From assembly GCA_016196035.1 (NCBI GenBank), contig JACPYM010000091.1, positions 64,501-128,500 of the forward strand: DNA of 64,000 nt. Direction: 5' to 3'. The notes under the pieces were generated by a model, which was not told where the DNA came from, ran no database searches, and saw only the letters and a list, made by a program, of their open reading frames with translations. Below are positions 7,287 to 40,513 of the stretch, piece after piece; position 1 is the first letter of the stretch; each line of letters opens with the position of its first letter. The position numbers were made by a program, and so were the translations under genes. The stretch is from Acidobacteriota bacterium (GTDB lineage: Bacteria; Acidobacteriota; Blastocatellia; RBC074).

Positions 7287-7524
7287 ATCGGTTTTCATTT
7301 GCGTGTACGGTAGGCGCGCCGCGCCGGGACAGTACCGCGCGCGTGAGCAAGCACGGCTGACTGACGCAACGCCGAAGCGCCGCTTGCCCACGCGCGCGGG
7401 GACAGTACCGCGCGCGTGAGCAAGCACGGCTGACTGACGCAACGCCGAAGCGCCGCTTGCCCACGCGCGCGGTACTGTCCCGCGGCGCGGCTTTTTGCCA
7501 TACACCGAAGTGAAAACCGATCTA
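7284..7524. repeat. GTACCGCGCGCG palindromic repeat, copy 1 (with internal 73-bp tandem duplication)
   Basis: Outer inverted ends TAGATCGGTTTTCA (7284-7297) and TGAAAACCGATCTA (7511-7524) enclose inner arms GGGACAGTACCGCGCGCG... and its complement ...CGCGCGCGGTACTGTCCC. The inner unit is duplicated with a period of 73 bp (7326-7398 and 7399-7471). Related copies sit near 15.5, 25.4 and 56.5 kb. It lies between convergent genes and could act as a bidirectional terminator. The family resembles REP/MITE-type elements, but no mobility gene was found. Confidence 0.9.
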
Positions 7525-35351: not shown

Positions 35352-35881
35352 CGTTACTTATTCGTTGACCTCCACAAGTGACAAATGCGGATTCCGCGCT
35401 GCCTGCGAGAGCACACTTGCAGGGTCAATACCAACGGCATGGCCTGTAAAATCAGACCATTGCAACTCATTCGCTCTCTGTCGCTGTTGGGAATCCGTCT
35501 TGCAAGGTGCGGACTCTAGCAGATAGGTTTGGCGACTGTCAAAAATTATTTTTGGCGGGGTTTTACACGGCTTTCTTGGTTCAAACATCGCGCTGGGACG
35601 CTGTTTTTCCTAGGCTTTGCGCCTGGCTCAAGGGCCATTGATGATGCGCTCCACGGGCGTTTGTTGCGCCACTGTGTTCGGCTTCCATGATTGAAGAAGT
35701 GGTCCCAGCGCAGTGGCGCTGAGCCGCCGCAGACGTTCGCACTAGCGGCGTGCAAAGGCTACCAGCCTACAGCGGCCCGTTTTATTTTTGGATGCAATCG
35801 CTCGCATCGCCGGACGACGCGCTGGACTCCCGAAGGTACGCTCGACGCAATCGCTTGTGCCGACTCTGACGGGCGGGAGTG
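35352..35881. other. Gene-free stretch between speA and the DGR template region
   Basis: About 530 bp upstream of speA with no convincing gene. A GCGCTGGGAC at 35589 and its complement GTCCCAGCGC at 35701 form a loose inverted pair. Open frames crossing it are extensions of the TR sequence and carry no family signature. The speA promoter should be here, but no clear -35/-10 pair was found. Confidence 0.5.
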
Positions 35882-36004
35882 CTGGCAGCCAGCACAACAC
35901 GAAAACCGATAACGAGGTTGCGGTTGCCGGGTTCGTTCCTATTACGATTGGCCGAACGGCAGTTCCTTCCATTGTTGTTCCACGAACCACCGCGCAGCAC
36001 CCGG
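35882..36004 (-). other. DGR template region (TR)
   Basis: 123 bp, aligned without gaps to 37643-37765 (constant offset 1761). Read on the minus strand it would encode [20 protein letters not shown]..., with AAC/AAT (Asn) codons at every site where the target protein varies; there are 25 adenines. All eight differences from VR are at these adenines. At the 3' side one extra mismatch (TR C, VR G on the minus strand, at 35881/37642) falls in a GC-rich tail and may distinguish IMH* from IMH. TR begins 17 bp after the RT gene and should be transcribed with it as the mutagenic RNA template. Confidence 0.95.
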
Positions 36005-36021
36005 AGGTGGCGTCACCCTCT

Positions 36022-37080
36022 TCAGCAACTCGTAAAAGCGAGCTCACTGAATACTCGTTCGCGCATCCGCCAGGTATCGGCGTGGGCCAGATGCGCAATC
36101 CAACTGCCGATGCGCTGCGTCAATTCCGCCAGCGAAAGCTGCCCGGCTTGAAAAGCGGTTTGCAGTCCGCGCAAGCGGCGGCGCGCCCGGCGTAAGTTCT
36201 CATTGCGGATGGTGAGATGATCAGCCAGTACGCGAAAGCCGACAAAGTTGGCCCCGTGGCGCGTCTCGAACAGTTGGCTTTTGACCGGATGAATGCACAA
36301 GCGCAACTGCGCCAGATAATCTTCCAACGCCCAGCGCGCCGCCGCGAGTTGCGCATGGTCGTCGCCGAAGAGCGCGAAATCATCCACGTAGCGCACATAC
36401 TTGCCGATGCCCAAATTCTGCTTCACGAAATGATCCAGGCCGCTCAGATAAACGTTGGCAAAGAACTGGCTGGTCAGATTGCCGATGGGCAGGCCGCGCC
36501 GCCGTTCGTAGGGCGTCCAAAGCGCGTCACCGGGAAAGTAATCGTGGACGGCGGGTTGTGCGTTGCTGGCGTCAATGATGGTGTCAATTAGCCAGAGCGT
36601 GGCGGCGCATTTGATTTTGCGCCGCAGGAGCGTCTTCAAAATTTCGTGGTCAATGCTGGGGAAGTATTGCCGGATGTCGCATTGCAACACGTAGCGGCTG
36701 GAGCGCGCGAATTCGGTAAAGCGCCGCAACGCGCGATGCGTGCCGAAACCGGTGCGGTTGGCGTATGAATCACGAATCATCGTGCGCTCGAAGATGGGCG
36801 CAATCACCTGGCATAAGGCGTGATGCACCACGCGGTCGCGGTAAGGCGCGGCGGAAATCAGCCGCTGTTTGGGCACGACAATCTCGAAGGTTCGGTACGG
36901 ACCGGGCCGGTAAGTGCGACTGTCGAGTGCTGCCTGCAACTGCAACAACTCCTCCGCCAGCCGATCGTTGAAACGCAGCACATTCGCGCGGTAACGCTTA
37001 CCGCGTTGCGCCTGTTGGGTGGCGTCCAGCAGGTTGCCGAAATCAATCACCTGCGGCCACAAATTGCCGTGTCGTTTCAT
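36022..37080 (-). CDS. DGR reverse transcriptase
   Basis: 352 residues. RT motifs: [12 protein letters not shown] with catalytic Asp135, [17 protein letters not shown] (197-212) and [13 protein letters not shown] with the catalytic Y-V-D-D (231-234), then FVGFRVL and a short thumb with RRRLRGLQ. The IGNLTSQ form of motif 4 (rather than QGxxxSP of group II intron RTs) together with LDHFVKQ is diagnostic of diversity-generating retroelements. No maturase or HNH domain is present. It copies TR RNA with adenine misincorporation to give mutated cDNA. Neighbours are TR directly downstream and avd upstream, separated from it by a palindrome. No ribosome site is obvious before the ATG. Confidence 0.95.
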
Positions 37081-37098
37081 GGGTTTCTTTGGTACTCC

Positions 37099-37204
37099 GG
37101 TACGGAACAGGGAGCGTGAGCGACCTGAGCCTTGCGGAGGTGCTTACTGGCCGAAGCTCAGGTCGCTCACGCTCCCCGTTCCGTACCTGCGGGTTCCGTA
37201 CCGG
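37099..37204. repeat. Inverted repeat between avd and RT genes
   Basis: GGTACGGAACAGGGAGCGTG... (37099-37130) pairs, with one mismatch, with the complement at 37156-37187; an extra GGTTCCGTACCGG follows at 37192-37204. The right arm is translated as the last residues of Avd (GTEPAGTERGA) and carries its stop codon. Confidence 0.85.
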
Positions 37205-37559
37205 CGATTTGTTGTTTGATCCAACTGCCAAGACTTATGCCCACCGCATTGATGAGTTTTGAGACGTGCTGATATTGCCCGCCGTCTATCAATTTGAACG
37301 AGACCAGCAAGCGCGCCTGTTGCCGCAACAGTTCCAGCCGCAGGTTGCTGGCTTCCAGTTGCTCGCGTTTTTGCCGGGCATAGCGCGCGCGAATCAACTC
37401 TTCCAGCAATTCATACAGGCTGGTGATGATGCGTTCGCCCAATGTGAACCGGTGATCGCGCGGCAACCGATTCAGTAAGGGTACATACCACAGAATCAAC
37501 TCGCGCGTCTGCTCGATGATGGGCAATTCGCCCGGTGGCGGCTTTTTATTTTTATGCAT
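37167..37559 (-). CDS. DGR accessory protein Avd-like (helical bundle)
   Basis: 130 residues, all predicted helical: PIIEQTRELILWYVPLLNRLP, then RDHRFTLGERIITSLYELLEEL (the FTLGERI signature of Avd and four-helix-bundle proteins), RARYARQKREQLEASNLRLE and LLVSFKLIDGGQYQHVSKLINAVG. Avd is a pentameric basic barrel that binds the RT and TR RNA and is needed for mutagenic cDNA synthesis. The chain is rich in Arg/Lys as expected. The last 11 residues come from a palindromic repeat arm. It lies between the target gene and RT, all on the minus strand. Confidence 0.88.
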   Translation of the reverse strand: MHKNKKPPPGELPIIEQTRELILWYVPLLNRLPRDHRFTLGERIITSLYELLEELIRARYARQKREQLEASNLRLELLRQQARLLVSFKLIDGGQYQHVSKLINAVGISLGSWIKQQIAGTEPAGTERGA

Positions 37560-37579
37560 GGTTCAAATCAAGAAAATTC

Positions 37580-37598
37580 ATGTGCGCTGCGCGCACAT
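37580..37598. other. GC-rich hairpin downstream of VR (putative retrohoming cruciform)
   Basis: ATGTGCGC-TGC-GCGCACAT, a perfect 8-bp stem with a 3-nt loop, about 45 bp beyond the 3' end of VR and 20 bp before the avd start. In other DGRs a similar hairpin just after VR boosts retrohoming, so the same use is inferred here. Confidence 0.65.
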
Positions 37599-37632
37599 TG
37601 TAAAAGCGTAAGAAGGGTAAGAGCGCAGAGGG

Positions 37633-39522
<1,890 letters not shown>

Positions 39523-39704: not shown

Positions 39705-40016
39705 ATGTCAAATCGGGTTGAGACAAATGAGGCCAATCAACTGCTTGCCGTGCCCTGCTTAAATGCCTTGCCAGCCAGTCTGCCGGGCGGCGGGGCGTTT
39801 GAGTTGGTGCTTGAGCAAAAAGTGCCGATCCTGCGTGCCACTGAAGCCGTGCACGCGCGGGTGGAAGAACTCCTGGCAAAAAATCGTGCCGGCAATCTCA
39901 CTGAGGCTGAGACGCTCGAGTTAGACCAATACGAAGAACTGGATGATTATTTGAGCCTGCACAATCGGTTGACGCGCAACCTTTTCCTCGCACAACAGGA
40001 TAGTCTCAGTGGCTGA
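39705..40016 (+). CDS. Small protein paired with an HNH nuclease gene
   Basis: 103 residues, AGGAGC ribosome site before ATG 39705. Mostly helical and acidic, with VPILRATEAVHARVEELLAKN and AGNLTEAETLELDQYEELDDYL. No DNA-binding motif is obvious. Its stop overlaps the GTG start of the HNH gene (40009), so the two are translationally coupled. The same pairing of a short acidic protein with an HNH nuclease recurs in cyanobacteria and related genomes, which suggests a functional two-gene module. The function is not established. Confidence 0.7.
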   Translation: MSNRVETNEANQLLAVPCLNALPASLPGGGAFELVLEQKVPILRATEAVHARVEELLAKNRAGNLTEAETLELDQYEELDDYLSLHNRLTRNLFLAQQDSLSG

Positions 40017-40513
40017 GAAAATTCCTGCCCCAATCCAAGCGGACGTGCGCCAGCGCGCCAATCATCTTTGCGAGTGCGGACGTGCGCCAGCGCGCCAATC
40101 ATCTTTGCGAGTACTGCCACGCGGACGAACACTGGCAATGGGATCGCTTCTTCATTGACCACGTCTTCCCAAAAAGCCGCGGGCCAAAAGCCGCAGGCGG
40201 CGCAGGTTACGCTTTGCAAAACCTGGCACTGGCTTGCCGCCACTGCAATCGCCGCAAATCCGACAAGCTGTTTGCCATTGACCCTGCCACCGGCCAGCTT
40301 GCGCCGCTGTTCAATCCACGGGAACAACAATGGGCGGAGCATTTCACCTGGACGGCGGATGGCTTGCGCATCGTGCCGCTCACCGCCACGGGACGCGCGA
40401 CTGCGGCCTTACTGGATTTCAACCGGGCGCGCGCCTTGCGAATTCGCGCGGCAGATGTGGCTGTCAAGCGCCATCCGCCCGCCGACGACCCAACTCAAAC
40501 CACAGAGTCCTGA
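40009..40513 (+). pseudogene. HNH endonuclease frameshifted by a 37-bp tandem duplication
   Basis: From GTG 40009 the frame reads VAEKIPAPIQADVRQRANHL and CE. Then an exact second copy of the preceding 37 bp shifts the phase. The rest of the gene is in another frame: RQRANHLCEYCHADEHW, the HNH core DRFFIDHVFPKS...NLALACRHCNRRKSD and a tail to 40513. A GTG at 40082 inside the second copy could restart translation and give 143 residues with an intact HNH core. The gene is thus either broken or expressed from the inner start. It overlaps the convergent CDF gene by 19 bp. Confidence 0.85.
40039..40112. repeat. Perfect 37-bp tandem duplication
   Basis: 40039-40075 and 40076-40112 are identical (GCGGACGTGCGCCAGCGCGC ... 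TTTGCGAGT). 37 is not a multiple of three, so copy number switches the HNH reading frame. Confidence 0.97.

Follow-up and report, generated by a model that had tools for sequence, protein, structure and literature searches.

The described systems that come closest to the locus reported here are the PtuB nucleases of Septu and of retrons, the type II toxin-antitoxin pairs, in which a small acidic gene lies upstream of a nuclease gene and overlaps or abuts it, and the spontaneous tandem duplications within genes, which are exact two-copy repeats in an open reading frame, of a length that is not a multiple of three, and which can potentially revert by loss of one unit. Reversible duplications are known from within the open reading frame of a capsule gene. 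Tandem repeats in promoters phase-vary at 10^-2 to 10^-3 per chromosome, as stated in excerpts of PMC12817950, and the confirmed spontaneous rearrangements in Salmonella that are described in the available portion of PMC3411829 have junction microhomologies of more than 10 bp. Here we compare these systems with a gene pair in a 64,000-nucleotide stretch of an Acidobacteriota genome (the window), the features of which are collected in Table 1.

The earlier note on this DNA described two identical 37-bp copies lying side by side in a gene for an HNH nuclease, and they are present exactly so. The repeat at 40039–40112 consists of exactly 2.00 copies, with zero extra matching bases at either end. 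When the window was shuffled 20 times, self-matches at lags of 18–300 reached no more than 13 bases, compared with the 37 observed, a difference that excludes chance as the source of the repeat. The unit occurs at only these two places in the whole 9.59 Mb genome and has no match in the viral_contigs collection. The event is recent, as had been proposed, or at least undecayed, the copies being 100% identical and the core frame otherwise open. The repeat shares with spontaneous intragenic duplications the two exact copies, the frame-shifting length and the potential for reversion, but its junction is without microhomology. The shift of frame after 22 codons is borne out by the open reading frames of the window: from GTG 40009 the native frame runs through 22 codons to GAG, then shifts as it passes into the second copy, and ends at a stop at 40158. 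Elsewhere in the same gene, the HNH loop has a 6-residue insertion that the homologues shown in the alignment lack; it coincides with two near-identical 13-bp repeats and is possibly an older in-frame duplication.

Table 1. Positions of the features discussed in the text (window coordinates unless a locus is named)
Feature	Position	Strand	Remarks	Basis
First copy of the 37-bp direct repeat	40039..40075	+		Seen directly in window sequence
Second copy of the 37-bp direct repeat	40076..40112	+	Identical to first copy	Seen directly in window sequence
Frameshifted product of the native GTG start	40009..40158	+	49 aa, 22 native residues	ORF reading
Open HNH core frame	40082..40513	+	143 aa if begun at GTG 40082; PF01844	ORF reading and profile match
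Two near-identical 13-bp repeats	40172..40198	+	At 6-residue HNH-loop insertion	Window repeats and alignment
Small acidic partner gene	39705..40016	+	103 aa, open frame, no curated family	ORF reading and homologous loci
Reverse transcriptase of retroelement	36022-37080	minus
bAvd accessory protein	37167-37559	minus	PF22296
32-bp exact duplication, protease-like gene	L164:17772-17835		Same genome; frameshift, no extra matching base
31-bp exact duplication, transposase gene	L176:2020-2081		Same genome; IS630-like by eye; frameshift, no extra matching base

The interrupted gene belongs to the HNH endonucleases: its domain matches PF01844 with an E-value of 4.9e-11 and 43.1 bits, against a curated cut-off of 21.4, the sequence contains CxxC pairs of the zinc type and an H..N..K core, and the C, H, N and K columns that are invariant in the alignment with homologues are all retained. 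As judged by profile and by modelled fold, the protein is PtuB-like. PADLOC PtuB profiles match it at 2.3e-13, and the model of a homologue finds its best fold matches in chains of retron Ec78 (E 8.9e-4), retron Eco7 (1.4e-3) and Septu (0.015), the top two Foldseek matches being chains of retron PtuAB complexes with a TM score of 0.54–0.57 by query length of that model. It nevertheless differs from PtuB in reaching 16.3 bits against the NCBIfam equivalog NF041761, the cut-off of which is 150, in its length of about 150 aa versus about 200–250, and in its setting, with its own small partner instead of a PtuA ATPase in the adjoining genes. The neighbouring genes are one for a kinase-FGE protein and an ORF that resembles, by eye, a cation transporter. 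Since the viral relatives of the HNH protein amount to 2 distant matches only, a phage origin was dropped.

A diversity-generating retroelement occupies positions 35876–39522 of the window, on the minus strand. Its target is a fusion of a protein kinase with an FGE-sulfatase domain. Between its template (35876–36004) and variable repeat (37637–37765) there are 9 differences in 129 positions, and 8 of these fall on template adenines. A link between this element and the duplication was considered and rejected, as the repeats of the element lie away from 40039–40112 and the 37-bp unit has no further copy in the genome.

The small gene upstream encodes a protein that is acidic by eye (16 D/E versus 8 K/R), its stop is overlapped by 8 bases by the HNH start GTG 40009, and it is probably co-transcribed with the HNH gene. 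The same 8-base overlap occurs in the homologous loci L002 (where the HNH start is TTG) and L003 (GTG), both of which carry one copy of the stretch that is duplicated in the window. In genome_contigs, a collection of one genome per species, 307 of 354 candidate stretches encode an HNH relative, and the best 80 of the 307 were kept, which as top scorers lean towards intact genes; they come mostly from Cyanobacteria, Chloroflexi and Acidobacteria, with one labelled Proteobacteria. In all of these best 80 loci a partner match lies on the same strand, no more than 400 nt upstream (78 under a stricter distance test), so the association with a small acidic partner, to which the earlier note had drawn attention, holds well beyond the window. 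The comparison with intact homologues that it had suggested places the relatives in the one-copy form, none of the 80 being duplicated at the site. At least 110 codons are open from the conserved VR in 79 of the best 80 loci; the exception is L118, whose HNH gene has an insertion and a stop. In L061, from Nostoc sp. CMAA1605, an in-frame TAG is seen at about 1480–1500 in the N-terminal tail of the orthologous HNH gene, the core of which is intact.

Some HNH relative is held by 39 of 58 genomes of the window's relatives, and full-length loci of more than 60% identity, own genome aside, are found only in G008 (66), G010 (65) and G031 (62). Among 25 genomes searched whole, each picked because it holds an HNH-partner locus, the HNH subfamily is present exactly once per genome and adjoins the partner in every case (adjacency was judged by eye from the coordinates), with an internal stop in one. 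The partner is matched in 4 of 11 genomes of the window's own family; in G001, of the same genus (completeness 73%, about 1240 pieces), it lies on contig C929, on which there is no HNH match.

The gene order, with the small partner first in 80 of 80 loci and 25 of 25 genomes, is that of a type II toxin-antitoxin system, and the likeness extends to the partner's occurrence without the nuclease: copies at G075:C17:8025-8285, G067:C202:44429-44692 and G071:C44:35113-35367 have no subfamily HNH gene beside them. The pair departs from such systems in that each of the 25 genomes has a single subfamily copy, and in a partner without a recognised antitoxin family or fold. The window partner reaches no Pfam cut-off, the 43 partner members share no family, and a fold search gave no convincing match, the best being a weak one to UPF0291 YnzC (E 0.2). 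A role in defence, or as a toxin with its restrainer, would be a natural guess for a nuclease that a small partner holds in check. Titles and opening lines of abstracts on HNH with toxin-antitoxin and cyanobacteria, on PtuB/Septu, and on tandem duplication, phase variation and reversion contained no description of the pair; it seems to be widely conserved and unstudied.

How much of the nuclease survives the frameshift depends on GTG 40082, the first start codon in a core frame that is open back to 40004, at which, according to the earlier note, translation could restart and keep the HNH core. The restart is weakly supported, although in principle it would preserve the conserved core. In a conservation profile built from 48 homologues, no column before V13 is nearly invariant, which makes residues 1–12 a variable tail; GTG 40082 encodes that very valine, and a start there would spare every invariant or nearly invariant column except V13 itself, which the start codon replaces. 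Late starts also occur naturally, the homologue L079 beginning only 4 residues before the conserved valine and those of Planktothrix 8 before it. It is initiation that tells against the restart. The ribosome-site energy of GTG 40082 is -2.5 kcal/mol, compared with -4.1 for the native GTG and -6.6 for the ATG of the partner, and 43% of the background start codons in the window do as well or better; the codon also lies within a predicted stem, with an unpaired probability of at most 0.01. Taken as a whole, the predicted fold is not unusual (z -1.19). Ribosomes from GTG 40009 would traverse the 40082 site, and most of the helix at residues 7–16 in the predicted structure of the homologue L054 would go missing. 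Given the weak ribosome site and the buried codon, we think that the nuclease has largely been lost, although there is a slight chance that some residual protein is made. Were the core translated from GTG 40082, the mutation could instead be nearly silent, or mild, with an enzyme that stays active, but this strikes us as quite improbable. Programmed frameshifting and a partner-HNH fusion were also considered and set aside: although the core frame extends open to 40004, no start codon precedes GTG 40082 in it, and no classical slippery heptamer was seen there by eye.

A survey for exact tandem duplications with a period of 18–300 in 2.39 Mb, a quarter of the genome, returned 20 rows, many of which are of low complexity or members of a dispersed repeat family. 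A dispersed family that contains GTACCGCGCGCG-like and GTGAGCAAGC-like segments, often arranged in tandem, is found at 7320–7472 in the window and in L165, L171, L245 and L275. Three duplications in the surveyed 2.39 Mb (37, 32 and 31 bp) have periods of 20 or more and no extra base, and all of them shift a reading frame; the homologues of the protease-like and transposase genes that are broken by the shorter two have longer or normal open frames, that of the transposase homologue in G031 having 360 aa. The same sequence holds further duplications of 44 bp (2 extra bases, apparently non-coding), 61 bp (2 extra), 78 bp (5 extra) and 18 bp (none). Exact tandem duplications of this range of periods are lacking in 400 kb of the related G008, where about 0.5 would be expected, so that the result is uninformative, and in 261 kb of genome_contigs loci there are 10 rows in three loci, all of low complexity and outside the HNH genes; both controls are too small to mark this genome as unusual. 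None was found in 122 kb of loci from other relatives.

The two further exact blunt duplications point to a cause that acts across the whole genome, whether a process of mutation or a fault in the assembly. In the latter case, overlapping contig or read ends would have been joined without merging their 37-base overlap, and the true gene would be one-copy and intact. Such an artefact would explain why three exact two-copy duplications of near-equal length (31, 32 and 37 bp), with no extra base, occur within 2.39 Mb, and why, in each of the three genes, the sequence on either side of the repeat otherwise remains open in frame, and the two similar events in the same assembly lend it some weight. 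Unlike the confirmed Salmonella rearrangements, the junction has zero microhomology, the outcome to be expected mostly of random ligation chimeras (PMC3411829, in the portion available). However, all three genes are accessory (HNH, transposase, protease-like), as would be the case for tolerated real mutations and not for random joins, and other duplications in this genome have 1–5 extra matching bases or less than 100% identity, which indicates that tandem duplication exists there as a process. We consider an artefact unlikely, if still deserving of serious attention. The earlier note had, in addition, suggested that the repeat could revert by slippage or recombination and so switch the nuclease on and off, which would make it a phase-variable locus. 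The geometry is right, in that loss of one unit of a two-copy repeat alters the frame, and such a loss by slippage is possible in principle; phase variation by repeat copy number also has precedents (PMC12817950, in excerpt). The homologues argue against it, since none shows the duplication and copy number does not vary among relatives: the exact duplication is found at the HNH site in 0 of the 80 genome_contigs loci and 0 of 39 loci from relatives. Moreover, there are exactly two copies, there is no microhomology from which the two-copy form could be regenerated, and no second form was found; the one-copy form, with the two flanks 37 bases apart, has 0 matches in genome_contigs, which, with one genome per species, may omit the same or near genomes. 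Switching has on these grounds very little to recommend it.

The explanation that we favour, and think probably correct, is a recent blunt 37-bp duplication that frameshifts a PtuB-like HNH gene, an ordinary loss of function with the partner intact. The duplication would have arisen recently in the 5' part of the HNH gene, in the organism's own DNA, and would have put the catalytic core out of frame while leaving the adjoining partner untouched. The nuclease would thereby be abolished or nearly abolished, and its loss may be tolerated because the enzyme serves an accessory function, probably defensive or self-limiting, and is restrained by the partner. Premature in-frame stops are present in 3 of the 10 other HNH paralogues that score at least 100 bits in this genome, G000 (L031, L036 and L037, otherwise readable), which suggests that HNH genes are often lost here. 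The duplication fits a wider inactivation of accessory genes, one that takes in these paralogues and the 31- and 32-bp breaks.

A more far-reaching interpretation, which we regard as a long shot, is that of an uncharacterised and widely conserved module in Cyanobacteria, Chloroflexi and Acidobacteria, usually one per genome, in which a stand-alone PtuB-like nuclease is restrained by a dedicated inhibitor, and that the nuclease is here shut off by blunt 31–37-bp duplications that would stem from a genome-wide repair process and could be undone precisely. As an allele, the frameshifted gene is ordinary, being yet another accessory gene put out of frame by a tandem duplication. Its value lies in the context, that is, in a conserved, unnamed nuclease-partner pair that is present in several phyla and in three blunt duplications of near-equal length in one genome. 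If artefacts, these duplications would caution against taking the frameshifted genes of this assembly at face value; if real, they would provide a clean test of how bacteria make short duplications that are free of microhomology.
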